From Sphaerolaimus hirsutus (lineage: Eukaryota; Nematoda; Chromadorea; Monhysterida; Sphaerolaimidae), in NCBI GenBank assembly GCA_964036195.1, contig OZ038452.1:22517785-22581784 (forward strand): a DNA stretch of 64,000 bases, given 5' to 3'. The translations under genes were made by a program, and so were the position numbers. Every line of letters begins with the position of its first letter. Positions within the stretch are counted from its first letter, which is position 1. This document shows, piece after piece, positions 6,441 to 54,944 of this stretch. The notes under the pieces are model-generated. The model searched no databases and was not told where the DNA came from. It saw nothing but the letters and a program-made list of their open reading frames with translations.

Positions 6441-9400
6441 CGTGTTTTGGGGGTTTCGCAGTTACAGATAAATGGTGGACGAACCCTGAAAAATACACAT
6501 TATTACAGTCACGTTAAAAATATTCACTAGCGATATATTAGGTAGTAATTTTAAAAACTAGTTTCTAGAGCACGACGCCAATTTCATTTTAAATCCACCC
6601 GTGGATGAAATAGGGACTGCCGTGTTTTTTCCAATTTTTTGACAAAATATCGTTTTTTACTGCCACTTGATCGACATACCTTTTATGACTCATGCCATAA
6701 TTTGGGAAATTAAAAAATTATTTTTAAAAACAACAACAAAGTTTCAAGTAAAAAATAATTGGAAAAATGTGTGTTTTTTAATCGGGTTCGTAAAAAGGTA
6801 CATTTACCTATTCTGCCAACGCGCGTCCTCGGCGCAAGTGTCGCAGCAGCATCCGAGCGTAACGAGACTCTTTATGCGGCGCGCAGAGCGACCTCGTCCT
6901 CGGCGCCGCCCAAGATCGTCGCGCCGGACGCGTGCTCGGCGGCGACGCCGGTCAAGACGGACAAGAAGAAGCACAAGACCGGCGGCTCATCGTCCAAGGC
7001 GAAGACGCCCGCCGGCGGCGACACGGACATGGGCGCCGACGGCTCCAAGAACAAAACCAAGAACAGCTTCTTCAACCTGTCCATGATGCGCATGCGGCGC
7101 GCCCGCTCCGCCCCGCTCGCGTCGCCCATCACGCCCAACAAGAAGGCGAACCGGCCCAACGGAAACACGCCCGGCCCGCCCGCCGGCGGCAACACCCCGG
7201 ACAAAGCGTACGTTCGCTTGTGGGAAACGTTTGTGAACGTTTGCGGGGGTACAAGTGAATGTCGTCGTCAATATTGTTATTATTTTTCTATATTTTTTCA
7301 TTCACGTGAACATGAATATAATATCCAGCTGGGTGCAGTCCAAGACCCTGTAAAGTGTCAAATGTCATGTATAATGTCTAAGCAAAGATTTTATTACAGA
7401 ACTTTGCATGACGTTTGACACTTTACTCCACACTTTACAGGGTCTGGGATTGACACCAGGTTCAATATTGACGTCATTGACGCTCAGTGTAATTTCTCTT
7501 GTACTTGTCAATTTTTTTTGATTATCTCGCTTTCCCACTACGCCAATCTGCCTGCTCAAAACTAGAACAAGAACAAATCGCAGTGGGACAACGCCTGTGA
7601 GATTAGCCGTGTGCAATTCGTCAGCCGCGTGCAATTCTGCAGCGCCGCACGCGTCAACGCCCAGCTCGGACCGGTCCGACTCGCAGGGCGACATCACCGA
7701 GTTCGTGCACGTTTGAATTTGCTTTTTAACGTATTTCGATAAATAAAGTGACGTGTTAGATGCACATTTGTTAAAAGTACTGACCTTTTTAAAAAGTAAA
7801 CGTAAACGTAAAATATTTCTTCTTTTACACCCCTGAGTACAGAAAACGTAAAGCATTTTTAAAATACTTTTACACAGTGTAAAACATAAATAAAATACTG
7901 TTTTCAGAGAAAACGTAAAAACGACATTTTTTCTGGGTAAAACGTAAAACGGGTATTTTTTATCATAGAAAACGTAAAAGTTAGATTTTTTCTCAAGAAA
8001 AAGTCGGTATTTTTTTATTTTTACCGTGGTATACATCTAAGATGTGTTTTTCTCCCTTGTGATGAAGTATATTTACTAGTAATTCCCACGGGGTTTAATT
8101 CTTCGTCAGATTTTTTACGGGGACTTTTCGAGGGGGGAGGGGATTATTCAAGGGGTGTACATTCGATTTCGACTCGAGCGAGCGCGCGCAGGTTCGCCTT
8201 CCCCACGCTGGACGAGCTGCACGCGCGCGAGAACCGCATGAAGGAGGAGAAGACCAAGGTGAAGGACAAGCTGCGCCTGCTCACCGACGAGATCGACACG
8301 CTGCGCGTCGAGCGCAAGGCCATCAAGCGCGAGGCGATCATCACCAAGCGCAAGCTGGACGCCGTCGTGCCCGAGTACGACAAGTCCAACGAGCGCGTGC
8401 AGGAGCTCACCGCCCAGTTCGTCCAGCTGCAGGACGACCTGGCCAAGATGACCGCCGCCACCAAGAAGCTCGAGGAGCAGAAGAACAAGCTGTCCAAGGA
8501 CTACATCGACGTGGACACCCGCTGCACCAACGTCAGCAAGGCCGTCGACGACGCCAAGGTGCGTGTGCTGGCGCCAGTGTGAGTGCTGCGCGCGAGACAG
8601 CCACGGGAACGGTGGTCTGCGATCGAATGTAAAAATCGAATGAATGATTTTTCTTTCCAAAATAAATAGTGGATCAGCATAAAAATACATTTTCTGTACT
8701 CAAATACTTTCAAAAGCTAGATATACGATTGCTGGTACCTGTTGGGAGAAAACGTAAACTAATTTAGTCGGTACTCGAGTGTCGACTGTATGTATTTTTA
8801 TGTGTAAAAGTTTATTTTTATGAGTAAAAGTGTATACTTTTTCGCAACGGTGTCATTTCACAAAGTGTCAACTCCTTCGCAACAATTTTTACAATTTTCA
8901 AACTCAAAATGGCGCGCCAAAAGTCCACACTCAAATCACGATCTTTCACCGCAGTCGCGGCACGCGGAACTGCGCAAGACGCTTGAGCGACTGATCGCCG
9001 AGTTGGTGCGCATGAAACCGACGCTGGACGAGCTGCGGCGACGCGAGCAAAGATTAGAGAAGGCCGAGAAGCAGACCACCGCGCTCGCCTGCTCCACTAG
9101 CCGCACGGTCGACTACCAGCTGGTTATGCTCAAAGTGATGCAGCTGCAGACTGAGAGAATAGCCACGTTTAAGGTGAGACGCGCGGCGAACTGCAGTTGT
9201 GATTAGTGATGTAAAGGCACCGGGGCACCGGTGTTCCGGTGCTAGGCACCGGATTTCACCAGCACCGGTGCCGGCGCTGTGCCTTTGCAATTTTCAGAGG
9301 TGCCCTTGCGCTTCCGGTGCCGGTGCCCTCTTTTTCAAAATAGCACCGGTGACGATGCGATGCGGTGCCACTTTTCCCGGTGCCTTTAACATCAATTGTG

Positions 9401-12400
9401 GTGATCTTGGCGAAGTCTGTTTGCGCGTCGCAGGCGATCATGGCGGCGCAGAAATCGCAGCGGAGCACGCGCATGGAGGACGTGCCCAGCCTGAGCGCCA
9501 CCGAGGACGAAGACGAGGACGGTGCGCCGCTCGCTTTCCACTGCTTCCCTTAGTGTACTTGAGTGACTTGACAGTTTGCACGTGCGGCGATTTATGTCTC
9601 ACGTTGGAAACGTTCCAATGAAAAGTAAAGCATCCAATTTTTTTTGTGAAAAGATGGAGAAAGTTATTGCTGTGGATACGTCAATGTAAAAAAGTTATAA
9701 CAGCAATATATTGTTAATACATGTACTTTACGAACATCGCATGCGCATGAAAACATTGTTGGCACGCTTCCAACCCAACCGGAAGCACGCGTGCAAGGTG
9801 TCAAATTACTGGACTATAAATCTGCCACCTTAACACCCCTCCCTACTCTTAGTGCCGCTGGGCGAGGGTCTCGGCGGCAGTGACAACCAGGCGCCCGGCA
9901 GCACCATCTCCGGCTACGAGCTGGTGGCGCGGCCCGAGTCGTCCAGCACCCGCAAGCAGGAGGAGTTCTCGTCGCGCGGCCGGGGTCGGGGCCGCGGCAG
10001 AGGCAGGGGCGCCGCTGCCAAGCCGCCCAGAAGCGCGCCCAGAGGCAAAGACGGCGACCCCAAGGTGGTGCTCGTAGTGCTCGTAAATACCGTATATCGT
10101 TGAATAAGACCCCCCCCCCCACGTTGAGTGACCCCCTGTTGACCATGTCAGGTAAACATAAGCCCCCTTGAATAACTCGCCCGCTGGGTATTTGATGTGT
10201 TTCCAGTTTCCACAATGTGTGATTCGGATGCCGATGAAAACGAAAAGGAACCTGAATAACTCCCCCCCGCCAAAATTCTAACAAAATGATAACTCCCCTG
10301 GGATCTTATTCAAGGATATATGGTATTTTGTTTGTACTCTGCAGTCTGCTCTGGTCCGCCCCATTCACGCGAGTAACTGCCATTCAATTCAGACCGGCGG
10401 CAAGCGGGACGAGTTCGATGACGCCGACCTCGCCGACGTGCTGCAGCAGCTGGACGAGTCTCGGGCGCAAGTGATGGCTCTCACTGAGCACTACAATGAT
10501 CTGCTTTATGGGCGAAATCCCGCGGAAAAAGTTGGTTGGGTAGTGGGCGCTTTACTGCCGCGATATTTCGAGTAAATACTACTGTTGTGATTTATCTAGG
10601 TATATGTATGTTTTTGTGTAGTCGCGGACATCACACTTAGTATGGAGACGTACCATAACCCAGGTGAATAATGAACCAAATTATACAGTTTTTTCTTATA
10701 ATATTTATTTCGTTTTTCTACGGAATAATTAACTACAAAATATGTCACAATATGTTATTCATTAAATTATGGTAGGATTCTGCGCATACTTTGCGAACCG
10801 CCGAGTATATGCGATTTCATGCAACCCAACACGTTCTCCATGTGCGTCGCGCAGGGCGAGTTGCCGCGGCAGGCGGAAACTGCGCGAGTCCAACTGCGGC
10901 GGATCAACGAGCTCAAGGCGTTAGCCGACAATCCGCGCGTCAAAAAGCTCGAGGCCGACGTGCGCGCCTACAAAGAGGAGGTGGCCCACCTGCAGCACCT
11001 GCTCGCTTACCCCGAGGCCATCCAGCACGACGACGCGGTGCGCGAGGGACTCATCAAAGAGGCGGCCCTGCTCGGCAACAGTCTACTTCGCGTGCAACTC
11101 GAAACTGCTCAGGTGTGTCCCCGTTTCTGTTATTCGTTTGTGAGCCCTGAAAAACACTAACGCTTGGTGGTTTGAGAGGCTGAGGCCCAGTAAACATGTA
11201 AACCCGCTGCACATGTAGACTCACTGCGCATGTAAAGTTACCTACTATATATGTGTACCCATTATTCACCTATGGGGGTATACACATATGGGGGTGGGAG
11301 GTTAGATAATGTGTTGCAGCTGTCTGTGCTCTATATAAGCGGTATCAGTGATTGTGGAACAATGTGGGCAATTGCATGCAGATTACCTAACATTGTCATA
11401 TTGTCACATTGTCAATGGTTGCTCATTTATGAAGTGGCATTACAACTGTGACGGTGTCACCAACATTGCTTCAAAAAGTACCGCTACTCCTGCACAGCTG
11501 CAATACATGAGCTACCTGCTCACCTGCATAGATGTGTAATGGGTATACATGTGAAGTGTATATATTTACATGTGTAGCCCGTCTACATGTACATTTGATT
11601 TACATGTACATTGGGTTTACATGTGCACTGGATAGGATCATTTTAAATATGTTTCGGTTCCATGGGATTCGGTCCCGATTCTCAAAAAGATGTCAGTACT
11701 TCCCAAAATGGTGCAAGCTCCATTTAAAATTCTGCATCTCGCTAAAAGACAAAGGTTTATAATGTACACATTTATGTGACTGTTCACTGTGGGACCGAAT
11801 TGTATACAACCGAATAGATGAAACCAAAGGTGCCGATTCTGCAAGTGGAGAATGTAAAATAATTTGTTAAGTGAGAAGCAATTGGAGAAATGCTAAGGAA
11901 AGGGGCAAATTAAAGGTAAAATGCAAGTAATTCAAGCAGTGGCAAGTGAAAAGACAAAGGGAAGTTTTGAGCAAAAATAAATGAAAAATGTTTACTGTTC
12001 CATCGATTTCATTTACCATATTTAAAAAAGTTTCATTTTTATTTTTAACGCTTTCTTGTCACTTGCCATTTGTCTTCAGACTTTTTATTTGCCTCGTCAC
12101 TTTCCACTTAACAAATCACGTGCCACAATTGGACGGAAAAACTTCGTGCAATGACTCAGTTTTTTATTTAAGAAACGTTGTTTTTAATGTTTATTTTTAC
12201 AAAGCTACTAAATTTGCTTATGTGTGACATATACCGATATATTTATCAGATAAGTGGCAATACTTTGTGATATGATCGGCCATAGAATGGCTGTGGAGCG
12301 ATGTAATGATGGTTATGATGCCCCCCCCCTGTCTACGTTCATGGTTTCGCCGCTTGCGTTTGTTTTAAAGACAACGTTTTTTAAAAGTTGAAAAACTCTG

Positions 12401-23047: not shown

Positions 23048-23930
23048 ATGCCACACACCGTTCTAATGGTCATGCTTTTTTGCTTAAGCTTGAGCCAAAA
23101 TCACGCATTCCCATTTATCAACAGATGGCCCAATCTGAGAAGAGGCATGGCTGATGTTCCGATGAGGGCACGGAATACCCTACACGAGTTTGAAATGCCA
23201 CAGTATTTGGAAATGCAACATGTAAGTTTCAGACATGTTGAGGTAAATAATTTGAAACTTAAAGGGATTGTTTTTGGAGGAACCTACACCTTAAATACTG
23301 TAAATCCTTGAATAATACCTTGGGGGAGTTATTTTTTCATTTTTGAGGGTGGAGTAATTCAAAGAGGAGGAGTTATTCATGATGGGAAGTCATTTTTCCT
23401 CAGAATTACATTGTGTTGCTAATATTATTTTGTATTTTGCGTTTTACTGCACTGCATTTGCAGTCCAGGCATAGCTTTATTTGGTCTGTCTCACTTCATT
23501 GACTTTTTTATTATTGACCCAACATCTTTTCCACCTATCACAGGGAGGAGTTATTTTTTCCTCATACAGTCAACAGGGGGTATTCAAGGGAGGGTTATAC
23601 AAAGGGGGTCTTATTCGAGGATATACAGTATGTATCCTAACATCTACTTCCAACTACATATGTGATTCATTTCTATCTTTACCTAGTTGTTTGTGAGCAA
23701 TGCAGACAACCATATTTACATTAAGTTGGCTCTCAATCTCTCACCACCCTCAACCCAAGCCACCAAACAAACAGCCGTCGCATACACAGGATTTCTTACC
23801 CAAATATGGCAAACGCGCAGCCCTGCTGAATAGTTTTGGTGCTATGCAATTGAGGAATGTCAGGAAGTCATTTCAATTCAAAAACTGCTTTTTCAGCCCC
23901 ATTCAGTGCAGGTTGCACCGCAGGGAGTGA
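23048..23930 (+). CDS. Allatostatin-C (somatostatin)-type neuropeptide precursor
   Basis: Two exons: 23048-23221 (58 codons, donor GTAAGT) and 23775-23930, or 23790-23930 with an alternative in-phase acceptor (stop TGA). Both junctions are phase 0, giving about 111 residues, close to the usual length of such precursors. Residues 1-20 form a hydrophobic signal peptide (HTVLMVMLFCLSLS). A GKR site precedes AALLNSFGAMQLRN, then a basic RK precedes SFQFKNCFFSPIQCRL, followed by HRRE and the stop. The pattern F-x-x-C-F-F-x-P-I-x-C, with six residues between the cysteines, is the AST-C signature (insect form QCYFNPISC). The product should be a secreted disulfide-ringed peptide acting on somatostatin-like GPCRs. 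There is no C-terminal amidation glycine. The intron carries a MITE. An additional small exon cannot be excluded. Confidence 0.85.
23296..23630. mobile_element. TACCGTAT-family MITE in the neuropeptide intron
   Basis: TACTGTAAATCCTTGAATAA on the left and TTATTCGAGGATATACAGTA on the right are mutated ends of the CGAATAA sub-family. It makes up about 60% of the intron between the two peptide exons. Confidence 0.7.
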
Positions 23931-25100
23931 TCAGATTTTTACTTGTTTTTATTTTTGATCAGAAAGTGCTTCACTCTCTGATAGATTTATTCATTTCTTT
24001 TGGAGTAGTTAGTGATGGAAAAGCAGTGTAGCACTGACACTGTTTTAAAGTATTTATTTAAGTTACTACGTTTGGTGCTGCTACCTGTTTTGCTAATAGA
24101 GTGTCTTAATCAACTTAGACATTTTTCTTATGCTTTTCCATCACTATCCAATTTGGGTGTAATATTTCTCAATTGCTGCTGAGTTGTGATGATGTGATTC
24201 TGTTAGTAAAGGCATAAATACCTATTATTACATTGGTACTTAATGCTTTAGTTGAGCTTTCAGGACCAATCTCCACTATCTAATATCTGCTTATTTGATA
24301 TAGTGCAAATATTGTGTAATTTTGAGCCTTCAAGTTTGAGTGACAAGGCAATTGTTTCAACACAATCACCAAGAGTGGCAAAATACCAGGTCCCAGATTC
24401 AATTGGGAAGGAATCAATTGTATGTTAAATATAGGGTAACTGAATTTGATCAGTCTGTACTCATTTGTGCTCTCCATCACGCCCTGTATTTTTGCAGTTT
24501 GCATTTCAAGGGTCATCAGTTGATGGGTTTGTTGATAAGTCGCTCATAATTTGGCTAATGTTCATGTCTGGTGCCAGTCTAAAGTGCAACTCGTTCACTA
24601 ACCCAAATGAATTCACTTGAGAGCAGTGTTGCCAATTGTTCCATCCCATGACCTGAAGTCGCCATGGCATTATTTCTTTATAGTATAATTCTATTGAAAC
24701 TGCTCAATCAAATGCATTTGCACTGAGGAATACTATCTGATTTCTACTGGTCACTTGAACTTGAACTTAGCCTGTTCTGTTGGTAATACATTACTCACCC
24801 ACCATAAATAATGTTTTATGTTAGCCAACTTAACTTTGGCACCTTTTTACAGCTCATTTATGTCAAAAGCATCACACTGTGTGAAATAATTGATTTTTAC
24901 AATGATCTATGGACATAACGTCATAGGAGCTTGCTAGACCGTTTATTGAATATCTGAAGACACAACCATCAAAACGATACAGCCACATTTTCCTACATGT
25001 CATGAGATGAGAATATTCCATTCCTGAAAATAAACTCATACACACCCTTGGCTTTGAATGCAGAAGTTTGCCCAATCTGGCTATTGTTAATTTACTACCG
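23931..25100. other. No supported gene
   Basis: AT-rich DNA after the neuropeptide stop. Short frames have no splice context and no recognisable motif. No clear AATAAA was found close to the stop. Confidence 0.45.
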
Positions 25101-28457: not shown

Positions 28458-29274
28458 TAGTGATGGAAAAGCGCCGGAAAAAATGGCGCCAGGCGCCAAG
28501 GGCGCCATGGCGCCATTCAGAAAGTGGGCGCCAGGCGCCAGGGGCGCCACGGAAAGAGGGCGCCAAGCGCCAAGGGCGCCATGGCGCCATTTGGAAAATA
28601 GGGCGCCAGGATAAAAAAGTGCCTACAACACCATGCGTGTGCTAAAAATGTTTCTACAGCACCACTGTACGCGCATTCACTTCTTAATTCGCGTTCTCCA
28701 GGATGTAATGGACAAAAACAAGGCTAGCAACAAAATTTTTTAAAATAGTATCCACATGACGAATTCAAACGCAATGGAAATTGTCATTTGACATCAATCC
28801 ATTCATTACAAATAGACCTTTCCAAACAATGTTTCCAAACAATTGCAACGATTTAAATCCGTTTATTTATGATTTTGCAAGTTAACGATCCATCATTCTT
28901 GTCTTCTGATCCGTCAGACAGATCTGATGAACCGTTGGACAAAAGATTTCCACCCACTCACACCACTCCATCCATTTTTCTGGCAAATTCAGATCATCCA
29001 CGGATGCGTTTTTCATTTTTTTTTCGTTTATACAGCACTCACCATGAAACCCTGCTGGCGCTTTTTGGCGCCCTTCTAAACCAGGGCGCCAGGCGCCAAG
29101 GGCGCCACGGAAAAAGGGCGCCACGGAAAAAGGGCGCCATGGCGCCTTTCAGAATGTGGGCGCCAGGCGCCAAGGGCGCCACAGAAAAAGGGCGCCAAGC
29201 GCCAATGGCGCCATGGCGCGGCGCCCTTTGGCGCCCTCAAATGGCGCCAGCGCCATGGCGCCATTCCATCACTA
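28458..29274. mobile_element. hAT-like element with GGCGCC arms, 8-bp duplication TATGTGAC
   Basis: The 817-bp element runs from TAGTGATGG to CCATCACTA with TATGTGAC perfectly duplicated on both flanks (28450-28457 and 29275-29282). Both arms are GGCGCC word arrays. The core encodes, on the - strand, a short frame (28908-29039) with PEKWMEWCEW and CLTDQKTRMMD, shared with the inverted copy at 54048-54944. Confidence 0.92.
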
Positions 29275-29845
29275 TATGTGACCCATACCCATTGGTTGGT
29301 ATATACCCATTTTTGGAACAAAATTCTCCATATTTTCGGTTTTGTATCCCTTCTATGCTTTGAAATAGCCTTTTTTAAATCTGAAATACGTTTTCTGTAC
29401 TCAAGTACCTATAAAAAGAATATGATAAAGTGAGTAGAGGTACTTTTCTGAAGAGATCTAAATATATTCACTCAGTACCTGAGTATAAGTATTTTTGTAG
29501 TAAACGTAAATATGTTTTAAAAACTATCTACTGCACCACACTGGGGAAAAAAGTGAAGCACCAAAGGTTGTATGGTGCTTTGCAAAATGACAGTTATAGA
29601 CCAGACACTACAGAAAAATGGCACCCCATGGCCAATGGCACATGGTATGGCACACTGTCTTGTTCTATCAAATAATGCTTTTTGCACCATGGCACCATTC
29701 TGTCACTAGACAAACTTCATTTATTACATGCACAAGTTTGAGGGTTTTTTTGAATGTTTATTATTATTTATGCATAATTATAATGGAATTTTACAGCACT
29801 AAAGTTTGCCTGATTTTCTGCCACTCGCCATCGGTAAACACATTT

Positions 29846-30528
29846 GAAGGGTGTGCTTCTAAAAGTACCGATCTACAAAAAATTGATTTTGAGATAATCG
29901 CGATTGAAAGTTTGGAGTATGCAATACCCATACATGGGTATTGGGTATGGGAATTTTGGGTATGAGTATTTCGGCCATATTGTTGGGTATCCACATGCAT
30001 GGGTATAATCATTCATTATGCACATAATACTAGCTATATAAAATTTAGTGAATTGTATTTTTGTAGTACAGTACATTTCAAAGGAACAAATTGGTAATAG
30101 CATGTAGATCGGTATTTTTTAGAGCACAAAATCAGAAAGCTGTAGATCGGTACTTTTACCCATAATAAAAAAGCACAAAATGAGTTATTGCGCAACCGGA
30201 CACCGATCTGACATTGGTACTTTTAGAAGCACAAAAAAAATGTGCAGATCGGTACATTTAAAAGAACAATTTTCAAAAAAAGTGTGTAGATCGGTACTTT
30301 GAAAGACACAAAAACTGAAAAAGCTTGTAGATCGGTACTTTTAAAATTTCAAAAACTGTATTTTGCGATTTTTTTGCTGTTTTCGACCCCCCATATCTCA
30401 AAATTGAATTTCGCACCCCCACATATTATATATATATTTTTGAAGCGCATTTTTATGGGGACCCCAAAAATGGTCCTAACTCAAATTTGAAAATTTTTTA
30501 GATCGGTACTTTTAGAAGCACACCCTTC
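29846..30528. mobile_element. GAAGGGTGTGC MITE, 4-bp duplication ATTT
   Basis: The 683-bp element begins GAAGGGTGTGCTTCTAAAAG and ends CTTTTAGAAGCACACCCTTC, perfect 20-bp ends, flanked by ATTT on both sides. Inside, TGTAGATCGGTACTTTT repeats several times. It ends 156 bp upstream of the GPATCH2-like start codon. Confidence 0.9.
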
Positions 30529-44183: not shown

Positions 44184-44546
44184 TACAGTCTTTCCTCGAT
44201 TAAGCCCCCCTCGATAACCCCCCTCGAATAACTTCCCCCCCTGTTAGCTGACTGAAGAAAAAATACCCCCCCCTCGAAAAACCGCCCCCCCCCTCTTTAA
44301 TGGGTGACGGAGACGTCCATAAAAGACGTCTTTATGTATGTTTTTTTCAAAAGCCATGTATTTTTTTGCAGCTAATCTTCACTAGCATTGATTTCATTGC
44401 ATGAATTATGGGATTTCAACCCTTTTCATACAACATTGATCATGCATGTTATTTTACTTAATAACTTCCCCCTGGAATAAATCCCCCTCAAAAAGTTCTG
44501 AAGAAAAAAAATAACTCCCCGGGGGACTTATTCAAGAATATACGGT
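44184..44546. mobile_element. TACCGTAT-family MITE (CGAATAA sub-family)
   Basis: The left end has decayed to TACAGTCTTTCCTCGATTAA. The right end is TTATTCAAGAATATACGGTA. Arms are C-runs separated by TCGAATAAC. Confidence 0.75.
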
Positions 44547-45494
44547 ACGTTGTACTTTGTTTCTCGGTTGCTATTTTGCAGGGCATTTTCCATGACTTTT
44601 GAGACTTTGCATAACATTTTACATTTTACAGGGTCTGGGCTTGGCGCCTGCTCGCGCGTTATTGTCTAAGACATACTTGAAGACTCAGACATGAACACAT
44701 TTCCGAAGTATTACTTCGGTGTCCGCCGAGTGTATTTATGTAATGACAATGGCCCAACACGCGATAGAACAAAACAAAACTTGCAAAACATAATAAAAGT
44801 ATCAAAATGGCTGGAAAAATTAACAATTTGTAATCTAGTGCAGAACAATACAGATTAATACATTTTTGAAAAATACCTTAGAAGTTTCGATTTTTTGGAC
44901 TGGATACATCTCATCTGGTGGTGGAATGGCGCCATGATGCTGGCGCCCTTGAATGGCGCCAAAGGGCGGCAGCGCCGTTCGCGCTTAGCGTCCTTTTCTC
45001 TGGCGCCAGTGTTTTGAATGGCGCCAAGATGCCGCGATGAGAGTTGATTTTTGGTCTATTTTTAAGTGCCATGATTTAAGATGATATGATTTTTTTTGTA
45101 TTTAGCATTTTACCTATGTAATTTCTTGCTCACACTGAAAGTTTAGGTTATGTCCGTCAGGGTTGGTTTTATAAAAATCATTTGTATACAAATTGTATAA
45201 AAATGTATTTTATTTTAATTTTATTCTTGTTTCATTTTATTTTATTCCAAAATGTAAATAAAATAATAAAAGGAACCATTTTACAAAAAATTTACAAAAA
45301 TTTTCCAAAAAATCGAATCTTGCATGCAAGGCCAGTAAAATGTTATCATTAGATGTAAACATGGAAAACTCCCAAGTGAAATTTTTTCATTACTTTGCAA
45401 AAGTTGCATGCAGTAGGTATTGTTAGCTAGTTAAAAGTGTAAAGTTACAATCATTGATAACAATGGTTTACATTTTTGGTACAACGACAACTGA

Positions 45495-47394: not shown

Positions 47395-48560
47395 TTTATG
47401 TTTGAATTATTTTCATTTTTATATTTTCAATATTTTTTTTTATTTTTTATTTTTTATATTTTATAATTAACTTTATTTTTTAAATAATTATTTAAAATAA
47501 TTGTTTGATAATATTTAATTCATATTGAATTTTTTTTATTGATTATACTTTTATTTTATGTTAATACTTTTATTTTTATATACCGTATATCCTCGAATAA
47601 GACCCCCCCTCGAATAACTCCTCCCCCTTGAATAACTCCCCCTCAAGAACACTGACGAAAAAATAACTCCCTCCCTTGAATAACTCCCCCCTCTTGAATA
47701 AGTCCCCCCTCTGGGTGAATAATATGCCATAAAATTTACAAAAATGATCGATGAAAATACAAAAGAATGTTAACGTATGGCAGCCACAGCAGATACATGA
47801 CATGTACGCAGTGTATAAACACCTTTTTGTTGTATTTGAACTGTTAAATACATAGATTACACGAGTTCACAGAATGCATTCATATGATGAATTCAGTCCA
47901 AGTTTCTGAGGAAAAAATAACTCCCTCCCTTGAATAACTCCTCCCCCTTGAATAAGTCCCCCCTCAAAAACTCTGACGAAAAAATAACTCCCCTGGGGTC
48001 TTATTCGAGGATATACGGTATACATTTTATATTATCACTTTTTATATTGTCATTAAATTATTTTTCAACTTTTTCATTGTATTTTGTCAATGTTTATTCA
48101 ATTATCTATTTTATTCATTTTTTAAATTTTTATTTTTTATTACAATTTTTTAAATGTTCTTTTGTCATTTTTTTTATTTAATTTAGTTTTTATCTGAAAT
48201 TCATTTTTTTATTTCATGATTTTTACTGTTTATTTATATTTGTATTCAATTTTCAATTTTTTCATTTTTTAAAATTAGTATATTAATTTCATTTTTATGT
48301 AAAATTTAATTATTTTTAAAAAAAAATTTTTATTCATTGTATTCATGTTTTTTATTGTAATTGTATTTAACTTTTAAACTTTTCCTAAGTTTTAACATTT
48401 TAATTGTTTTCTTTTTTGTTAAAATTTTATACTATTTAAAATTTATTTATAATTTTATTCTGGATGATTTCCATAATTTTTTGTATAAAAAATTCTTAAT
48501 AAATTTTATTTTTTATTATTTTATTATTATTTTTGTTGTTATTGTTTTTATAACCTCCGG
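47395..48560. other. Very AT-rich low-complexity DNA with a MITE inside
   Basis: T-rich DNA (TTTTATTTTTTATT-like) with almost no G or C except the element at 47581-48020. Open frames here give Phe/Ile/Leu runs and are not credible genes. Confidence 0.7.
47581..48020. mobile_element. TACCGTAT-family MITE (CGAATAA sub-family), full length
   Basis: The 440-bp element runs from TACCGTATATCCTCGAATAA to TTATTCGAGGATATACGGTA, perfect 20-bp ends. Arms repeat CCCTTGAATAACTCC. Confidence 0.92.
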
Positions 48561-49626: not shown

Positions 49627-52600
49627 ATGCTGCAGCAGCACATCTTTGCTGGTTGCCTGTATGGCCTGCTCAGTGCTACATCGCTGATATTGTACATTTT
49701 ATTTTTTACTGTCGTCTTTATGGTGAGTTTTGCATCATTTTTGCAAGTTTGTTAAAAGTGATGGAAAAATACGTGAAAGATAGGCATCATTACAAAATAG
49801 GATGCAATCGAAAAGGGGACAATATTGTTAATTTTGCCATGGTTGAGCGCACTTTGGAACCTTCAAATGGTGTTAGTGCCATTGTGTGAAAAGTAGTCAT
49901 TAGAATTTACTTGTGAAATTATAAAATAGAATCCATCTGTAAAAAATACAGAGAATGTGCTGCAAAATAAAACCCATTGCACACAGATACTTAAAAAAGT
50001 ATACAAAATGAGTGGAAGTACTGCGAGTTGTCAGAGGAAATCAAAATTATTTTCCTTATTGTATCTGAGTTTTAGTAACGGTAAATGCCTAGGTAAATTT
50101 GAACAAATTTCAGACATTCACTATCTGCTTTCATTCAAATAACCATTCCACTAAAAGAGCACCAAATCACACAAACAAAAAAAACATCCAGGACTCCAAA
50201 CTCTATGTCAATCCCTACTACAAACTGGCGATCAGTTTGGGCATCAGCGACGTGATCAACATGCTGTGCATGCTGCTCTACGCCGCGCCATGTTCCATTC
50301 TACAGGTTGAAATTGGAGGCGGGAGGCTCAGTTCAATCATGGGAACCTTTTCACAGGTGGCATGGTATGTCAGTGCGGCCCACCTGCCTATAACTGCCTA
50401 TAATAGGTTTGTTGATTTGGTATAAGTAAATTTAAGTAGAAGTATATGTGATGGTGTGACCATGTGACACTGTGTAAAAGTCATTATTGATGTTCACATG
50501 ACTTAGTTCTGTAGAAGCATCAGTGTCCCAGTGTTGAGCAAAGAAGGGCACCATCACACTTGGAGTGTCTGCAATATTCAGAGGTGTCACCCTACCCTGG
50601 TACCACAAAACACTTGGTTGAAGCACTAAGTGTTTTTGTACTGGGGGTGGCATGACATGGCAATATAGGTAGTGCTGAATGTCTCCCATTCACATGTGTA
50701 GTAGTTGATTGACACATGCTACCAACAGCAACAGCCAAGTGCTAGTGGAATAAGAAACTATCACTCCACAAAAACAGCTTAGCAGTAGCACTTGTATTTT
50801 GCCTGTGACACTGAGCAGGCCTAGACCAGACATCATGCTGATTTTACATCATTTTTCTTGTCACTGAGGATTAAGAACCCCAATTTCACATCAAACAGCT
50901 AAAACTTAATGACACCTTTGATTTGGCACCATCAACAAAAACCTTCACGTTAAAAAATTTTTCACCTTATATTTCACAACTTCCAAATATGAAGGGTGTG
51001 CTTCTAAAAGTACCGATCTACAAAAAATCGATTTTGAGATAATCGCAATTGAAAGTTTGGAGTATGCAATACCCATACATGGGTATTGGGTATGGGAATT
51101 TTGGGTATGGGTATTGCGGCCATATTGTTGGGTATCCACATGCATGGGTATAATCATGGATTATACACAGTACACTAGCTATATAAAATTTAGTGAATTG
51201 TATTTTTGTAGTACAGTACATTTTAAAGGAACAAATTGGTAATATCATGTAGATCAGTATTTTTTAAAGCACAAAATCAGAAAGCTAGCACAAAATGAGT
51301 TTTTGCTCAATTGGACGCCGATCTGACATCGGTACTTTTAGAAGCACAAAAAATAATGTGCAGATCGGTACATTTAAAAGAACAATTTTGAAAAAAGTGT
51401 GTAGATCGGTACTTTTAAAGACACAAAAGCTGAAAAAGCTTGTAGATCGGTACTTTTAAAATTTCAAAAACTGTATTTTGCGATTTTTTTGCTTTTTTCG
51501 ACCCCTCATATCTCAAAATTGAATTTCGCACCCCCCACATATTATATATTTTTTTGAAGCGCATTTTTATGGGGACCCCAAAAATGGTCCTAACTCAAAT
51601 TTGAAAAATTTGTAGATCGGTACTTTTAGAAGCACACCCTTCATATGCTCAGGTTCACAGTTTTGGTAAAGCCATCTCTGTCAAAGCATTTTGATGGTTG
51701 GAATGTGTGGTACTGGATAGTTGCAGCATGGGTAATCGCTGCACCATTTGGCATAGTCAATATTTTGCCTGGTTGCCACGTGCATTTTTATCCAGCTGAC
51801 CTCTGCTGGGGATATGAATTGACTGACGAATGTGCCAAATTGTTTTCAAGTGTGAGTTGGGGGGGGGGTAGGAGTTGAATTTTTACTGAATTATTGTCAT
51901 AACTTTCACTATTGGGAAATTTGGTTCATAATTTATCACATCTTTATCCATCAAAATATGGTAACATTCTCTGTGAATCATTCAGTCTGCTCAGTATAAT
52001 AAGATTCATCAATAATTGCTATCTTTTAAGTCACATTGTACCCACAAGTTTTTGCAATAAAATTATTATTTTTCTCAAATTATTACCTAAATCAAACCAC
52101 CCATTATTATGTTTCAGGCAGAACCAATTTGGACCCCAATTGTGGGCGGAGTCACAATTCTGATGAATTTGGCAACATTTAATGCGATCCGGTCTCAGCA
52201 CAATGTAATTACACCTTCATTAAATAACAGCAATCATGTGAGTTTTTGGTTAGCTATTGTAAACAATTCGAATTCCACACGTTGCCAAGTGAATAGTCGA
52301 GTTACAAGAGGAGTAGCAAGTGACAAGTACATTTATAAATCGTTTATAGAGTCAAAAGTATACTCTTTAGGCGCGTTTTACACTCTGAGACTGTGACGTC
52401 ACAAAATGCAATTTTTCAGCCATTTTTGTGCGATACATATGACATATTTTTCATGTGTGAAGCCTCAATTGATCATGACTTGATCTCAATTGATCAGCCC
52501 CACTGCCTAAGACAAACATAAAATTATGCATGCATGCATGCATATACTCCTAGGTGGTATGTATACTTTACCACATTCACTCATGAATATGGAACTTTTT

Positions 52601-53156
52601 ACTCGACTTATGGAACTTTTTCAAGTGTTGTCGGAGTCGTCACAAAAATGCAGTGTAAACGCTGTCTTAATACTGTGAGTTACTGCCTCTTCTTTTTGGA
52701 AGTATGCTCTTAGAAAAAGCACCACTTAACTGCCACCTGAAGTAAATAGGACATCAAAGTAAAAGACATCAATATGTATTTTTTTACTTGCAGAATCACG
52801 AGCGAGCCAAGCGGGAGCGCACTCTATTCTTCAATTTCACCATTCTTGTGGCTGTTTTCATCACAACTGGTTTCACATTCAATTTAGTCCCAACTTTTGT
52901 GGACCCATTTACACCGACAGCCGGCATGATCGTGAATACAATCTATTTGGCATATGGCGGCGGCAATCCATTCGTGTATTTATTTGGAAATTCATCGTTT
53001 AGGAAGGGTATTAGGAAACTGTTTTATCAAGTTCGTGCAAAAATTAGGGGTGAGACTTGGGCTGAGCAGACATTTTCAATGTCTCATCATCTGCATAAAC
53101 CTACAAATGATGGCAAGTATATGAGTAGTGGACATGGAACTGTTCCACACAAATAA
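49627..53156 (+). CDS. Seven-transmembrane receptor, serpentine Srt/Srx-like
   Basis: Five exons: 49627-49722, 50192-50406, 51653-51851, 52118-52204 and 52794-53156 (stop TAA). All junctions are GT-AG and in frame, giving 319 residues. An in-frame ATG at 49549 could extend the N-terminus. Predicted membrane segments: exon 1 (LLSATSLILYILFFTVVFM); exon 2 (KLAISLGISDVINMLCMLL and the VAWYVSAAHLPITA segment); exon 3 (WYWIVAAWVIAAPFGIVNIL); exon 4 (IVGGVTILMNLATF); and two in exon 5 (FTILVAVFITTGF; IVNTIYLAYGG). TAYNRF sits where DRY is usual, and NPFVYL is an NPxxY-like motif followed by FRKGIRKLF. The YYKLAISLGISD phrase, NRF and an extracellular W-x-Y...C loop resemble nematode Srt/Srx receptors. 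The class call is tentative and the ligand unknown. Confidence 0.82.
50991..51642. mobile_element. GAAGGGTGTGC MITE abutting a receptor exon
   Basis: The 652-bp element runs from GAAGGGTGTGCTTCTAAAAG to CTTTTAGAAGCACACCCTTC with ATAT on both sides. It is in the second intron of the receptor and ends 10 bp before exon 3 (51653). Confidence 0.92.
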
Positions 53157-54047: not shown

Positions 54048-54944
54048 TAGTGATGGAATGGCGCCATGGCGCTGGCGCCATTTGAGGGCGCCAAAGTGCG
54101 CCGCGCCATGGCGCCCTTGTTCTGTGGCGCCCTTGGCGCCTGGCGCCCACATTCTGAAAGGCGCCCTTGGCGCTTGGCGCCCTTTTTCCTTGGCGCCCTT
54201 GGCGCCTGGCGCCCTGCTTTAAAAGGGCACCAAAAATGCGCCAGCAGGGTTTCAAGGTGAGCGTTGTATAAATGAAAAAAATGAACAACGCATCCGTGGA
54301 TGATCTAAATTCGCCAGAAAAATGGACAAAGTGGTTTGAGTGGGCGGGAATCTTTCGTCGAATGGTTCACAGGATGTGCCTGACCGATCAGAAGACGAGA
54401 ATGATGGACCATCGACTTGCAAAATCATAAATCAATGGATTCAAATCGTTTCAATTCCGTTTTTGTCCATTTCAAGGGAACATTGATTGAAAAAGTCTAT
54501 TTGAAGTGAATGGGTTGTTGTCTAATGACAATTTCCATTGTGTTTGAATTTGTCATGTGGATTTTATATAAAAATATTCTGTTGCTAGTCTTGTTTTTGT
54601 TGATTAAATTCTGGAGAACGTGAATTAAGACGTAAATGCATGTACTAAAGTGCTGTAAAAGCATTTTTAGCACACACAGGGTGTTGTACGCACCTGTTTA
54701 TACTGGCGCCCTTGGCGCCTGGCGCCCTATTTTTCAAATGGCGCCATGGCGCCCTTGGCGCTTGGCGCCCTCTTTCCGTGGCCCCCCTGGCGCCTGGCGC
54801 TCACTTTCCGAATGGCGCCATGGCGCCCGTGGCGCCTGGCGCCCTTTTTCTGTGGCGCCCTTGGCGCTTGGCGCCCACTTTCCGAATGGCGCCATGGCGC
54901 CCTTGGCGCCTGGCGCCCTTTTTTCTGGCGCTTTTCCATCACTA
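54048..54944. mobile_element. hAT-like element with GGCGCC arms, 8-bp duplication CTTGGGGC
   Basis: The 897-bp element runs from TAGTGATGG to CCATCACTA with CTTGGGGC perfectly duplicated (54040-54047 and 54945-54952). It is the inverted relative of 28458-29274. The core has a + strand frame of about 52 codons starting at 54270 (NASVDDLNSPEKW, CLTDQKTRMMD) and ending TAA. Confidence 0.93.

Follow-up and report, generated by a model that had tools for sequence, protein, structure and literature searches.

Does a short stretch of the Sphaerolaimus hirsutus genome, at positions 23048 to 23930 of the window, encode a neuropeptide precursor of the allatostatin-C (AST-C)/somatostatin type, and how would such a gene compare with those of other nematodes? 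The window, i.e. the whole stretch of DNA analysed, comprises 64,000 nucleotides of contig OZ038452.1. The gene is probably real and probably ordinary for a nematode. What would be new is one further AST-C-like gene, the kind itself having already been catalogued many times in nematodes.

Gene model and precursor

The locus as a whole very probably represents a nematode AST-C/somatostatin-type prepropeptide gene with two phase-0 exons (Table 1). The first translates as MPHTVLMVMLFCLSLSQNHAFPFINRWPNLRRGMADVPMRARNTLHEFEMPQYLEMQH and ends in CAT directly before the donor GTAAGTTT; the second translates as DFLPKYGKRAALLNSFGAMQLRNVRKSFQFKNCFFSPIQCRLHRRE, followed by the stop codon. Joined, they would give a precursor of 104 residues with the C-terminal order GKR...VRK-SFQFKNCFFSPIQCRLH-RR-E. 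The reading frames and splice-site dinucleotides were read directly from the sequence, and from them we infer the splicing.

Table 1 Predicted features of the S. hirsutus AST-C-like gene (positions within the window)
Feature	Positions	Strand	Details and basis
Exon 1	23048-23221	+	58 codons (174 bases), phase 0; carries the start codon, the probable signal peptide and an N-terminal spacer; frame open up to a GT donor, splicing predicted
Probable signal peptide	23048-23107	+	residues 1-20; cleavage after S16 or A20 is a guess; hydropathy
Phase-0 intron	23222-23789	+	567-568 bases if 23221 is joined to 23790; bounded by GT and AG
Exon 2 and stop	23790-23930	+	TGA at 23928-23930; open frame
GKR, dibasic site at which the upstream spacer would be cleaved and amidated	23808-23816	+	sequence
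RK dibasic site preceding the Cys peptide	23862-23867	+	sequence
Predicted mature AST-C-like peptide SFQFKNCFFSPIQCRLH, free acid	23868-23918	+	putative Cys7-Cys14 bridge; core chance counts, alignment with C. elegans NLP-99
RR dibasic site after the peptide, then a lone Glu and the stop	23919-23924	+	sequence

The exact exon boundaries have several candidates. A second phase-0 donor (GAG/GTAAAT) would end exon 1 at 23242, and the frame of exon 2 is open from 23697, with earlier in-frame starts at 23706, 23760 and 23775 besides 23790. The acceptors for 23775 and 23790 had been named in the original prediction, those for 23706 and 23760 were found in addition, and all of them join one open frame. 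No clear pyrimidine run was found before the AG at any of these four candidates, which are weak and in competition with one another.

The same peptide might come from another gene model, with exon 1 extended to 23242 and/or exon 2 beginning at 23706, 23760 or 23775, or from a single exon starting at the ATG at 23700, and every such frame is open and in phase. We nevertheless consider these models unlikely. The best 10-residue Kyte-Doolittle window at the N-terminus of exon 1 reaches 2.82, rank 3 among the 290 ATG-started frames open for 50 codons, whereas in the single-exon version a separate, weak signal sequence (MQTTIFTLSWLSIS...) would open the protein, and this start is far less signal-like (1.55, a value reached by 69 of the 290). 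Furthermore, a split after the signal exon agrees with the phase-0 intron of the family. According to the available text of PMC7536072, an early phase-0 intron is typical of SS/ASTC genes, and the two-exon model has one in which the GT-AG ends are read and the splicing is predicted. In the ASTC genes of C. elegans and Drosophila described there, the C-terminal part is interrupted by a further intron, of phase 2, which is absent from the S. hirsutus gene.

A self-BLAST of the window shows that a large part of the intron (23295-23405 and 23542-23634) is repeat sequence, and neither AATAAA nor ATTAAA is present in the 770 bases downstream of the stop (23931-24700). The inserted repeat, the weak acceptors and the failure to find a canonical poly(A) signal nearby would all suit a paralogue of a nematode AST-C-like nlp gene that has decayed or is not expressed. 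Such a state is highly unlikely, however, given that the two coding exons are open and in phase and the processing sites are all intact, and we retain the model of an intact two-exon gene.

Searches for relatives of the 104-residue precursor gave 45 pattern matches in a prokaryote collection (genome_contigs) and 2 in viral_contigs, none of them confirmed, which is the expected outcome in both. Pfam assigned the precursor to no neuropeptide family, the single match being at chance level (E 0.24), and a PDB search with it returned no match. Uninformative Pfam and PDB searches are usual for precursors so short.

Processing sites and AST-C core in relation to chance

We compared the precursor with the criteria for protostome AST-C/somatostatin-type precursors given in the available part of PMC7536072. 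It contains one Cys peptide, located C-terminally, with RK before it and RR after it, one residue ahead of the stop. The two Cys residues (codons at 23886-23888 and 23907-23909) lie six residues apart and enclose an FxP core (C-FFSPIQ-C). The dibasic sites are read directly from the sequence, and HRR-E looks like a C-terminal dibasic site or processed end. Both the AST-C core and the GKR site that had been ascribed to this gene are present in the exon 2 frame, and the core is the sole occurrence of C-x-F-x-P-[ILVM]-x-C in the six frames of the window.

Chance expectation was estimated from 300 first-order Markov sequences of window composition, using motifs that were picked post hoc, after the match had been seen. 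The pattern C.F.P[ILVM].C occurred in 26 of the 300 simulated windows, C[FYEWL][FY].[PA][ILVM].C in 17 and C.FSP[ILV].C in 2, and the arrangement of a dibasic site, 2-12 residues, the AST-C core and a stop within 8 residues in none. The bare layout of a dibasic site, C-x6-C and a near stop was observed 6 times against a simulated mean of 4.42, i.e. at chance level, and it is therefore the core residues, not the layout, that carry the weight.

It is very improbable that a chance open frame carries a chance AST-C-like core here. Bare layouts of this type are indeed common and the motif was selected after the fact, but the full core with its flanks did not arise in any simulation, and a strong signal-like exon lies upstream, in phase. 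This signal-like start is independent support for the gene. With the frames confirmed and the core and flanks beyond chance (2 and 0 of 300), the analysis supports the original prediction of two phase-0 exons that encode an AST-C/somatostatin-type precursor.

Comparison with nematode and insect AST-C peptides

An ORF at 50093-50422 (+) represents a chemoreceptor gene fragment (Pfam 7TM_GPCR_Srx, 25.5 bits vs. a cut-off of 23.8, E 1.2e-5), and for this reason nematodes, not insects, are the proper yardstick for the peptide. Srx and Srv are nematode chemoreceptor families (serpentine receptors). An insect origin was set aside on the strength of this one Srx match over the cut-off, and the peptide motif also points to a nematode.

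The C. elegans peptide NLP-99 (T05A8.3), GDGYGWNDCEFSPLSCLL, is described as the somatostatin/AstC orthologue that activates the Gi/o-coupled receptor NPR-16 (PMC13082328); the name was given in PMC9881375. It is also reported to have a signal peptide and dibasic flanks. When only the mature peptides are compared, SFQFKNCFFSPIQCRLH aligns with NLP-99 without gaps, with 6 of 13 core residues identical, and 57 of 100,000 shuffles with fixed Cys reached the alignment score. When the 149 C-x6-C stretches with the needed flanks in six frames were scored against NLP-99, this peptide had the best value, 38, and the next best was 28; by this score, no other C-x6-C stretch in the window comes close as a paralogue. 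BLASTP of exon 2 against NLP-99 gave E 3e-05 for that single pair (6/17 identical).

The two peptides have in common the C-x6-C loop and C-x-F-S-P-[LI]-x-C-x-L, and both run two residues beyond the second Cys, ending in Leu. Because NLP-99 also has two residues, the second of them Leu, after the second Cys, the CRL tail is in keeping with nematodes, and the earlier description of the tail as unusual does not hold for this group. The two differ around the first Cys, where NLP-99 has Asp-Cys-Glu and the S. hirsutus peptide Asn-Cys-Phe, and the latter has an extra His ahead of RR, unlike NLP-99. Insect AST-C of the PISCF type shares C-x6-C and the FxP core with the S. hirsutus peptide. Insect AST-C peptides finish at the second Cys or one residue later.

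The available text of McKay et al. 2022 (PMC8764417) adds nine AST-C-like genes (nlp-88 to nlp-96) to the seven reported earlier from nematodes, sixteen in all. Their motifs are RNCFF(S/T)P(V/A)QC for nlp-88 to nlp-91 and (K/R)NC(F/Y)F for nlp-92 to nlp-96, and the match to them was read directly from the sequence. The NCFFSP-x-QC core of nlp-88 to nlp-91 is common to the S. hirsutus peptide, but KNCFFSPIQC departs from the published motif at two positions: Lys replaces Arg ahead of Asn, and Ile stands in place of Val/Ala ahead of Gln. The KNCFF of FKNCFFSPIQC agrees with the motif of nlp-92 to nlp-96; the comparison is by motif only, and from this shared motif no single gene among the five is nameable. 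A text search of biological papers, supplements excluded, returned PMC13082328, with the NLP-99 core, and one unrelated paper, but no match to the core strings of the S. hirsutus peptide.

Putative products, wider context and surrounding sequence

The signal peptide of exon 1 would route the precursor into the secretory pathway, where a proprotein convertase could cleave after RK and RR and a carboxypeptidase could remove RR. Closure of the C-x6-C loop by the two Cys (Cys7-Cys14) would then yield the free-acid peptide SFQFKNCFFSPIQCRLH of about 17 residues. Judging from the family, this product, presumably expressed in neurons, may be a neuromodulator with inhibitory signalling at a somatostatin/AST-C-type receptor that, like NPR-16, couples to Gi/o. 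Cleavage at the GKR site would in addition free an amidated peptide from the spacer; it would end in DFLPKY-amide and may be either active or inactive. That the precursor yields two ligands, namely the free-acid AST-C-like loop with a C-x-LH tail and this spacer peptide, seems to us rather doubtful. If true, this would be a new arrangement, in which an AST-C loop is co-released with an unrelated amidated peptide encoded by the same nematode gene.

The S. hirsutus gene would extend the nematode AST-C-like ligand set by one. According to the available texts, AST-C-like ligands, and receptors of which NPR-16 is an example, are relevant to the sleep, metabolism and survival of C. elegans (PMC13082328). 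They are also discussed as parasite targets (PMC8764417, PMC8515059), and npr-16 is listed as one of the receptors that show conservation in eight of ten parasites (PMC8515059). Short two-exon genes of this type are easily overlooked, and several AST-C-like genes are unannotated, e.g. nlp-92, -93 and -95 in Ascaris (available text of McKay et al., PMC8764417).

Elsewhere in the window, an ORF at 52746-53153 (+) appears as a further chemoreceptor gene fragment (Pfam Srv, 20.1 bits, just under the cut-off of 21); its relatives search in the prokaryote collection (genome_contigs) gave 66 pattern matches, none confirmed. The ORF at 7941-8579 (+) matches many coiled-coil families in Pfam, but weakly, with none over cut-off among the matches listed. 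Apart from the Srx and Srv fragments and weak coiled-coil hits, Pfam gave nothing informative for the neighbours among the 20 window proteins searched, and Rfam and ARAGORN had no matches in the window.

The repeat in the intron (23295-23634) matches 47577-48021, 44460-44547 and 10084-10328; it is interspersed and rich in GAATAACTCCCCC-like units, and short tandem units akin to it recur across the window. The ORFs at 29600-29965 and 50922-51242 (+) have the string EGCASKSTDLQKIDFEIIAIESLEYAIPIHGYWVWEFWV in common, probably a dispersed repeat. Tandem arrays rich in GGCGCC, with periods of 16, 32 and 74 bases, are located at 28485-29219 and 54103-54931.
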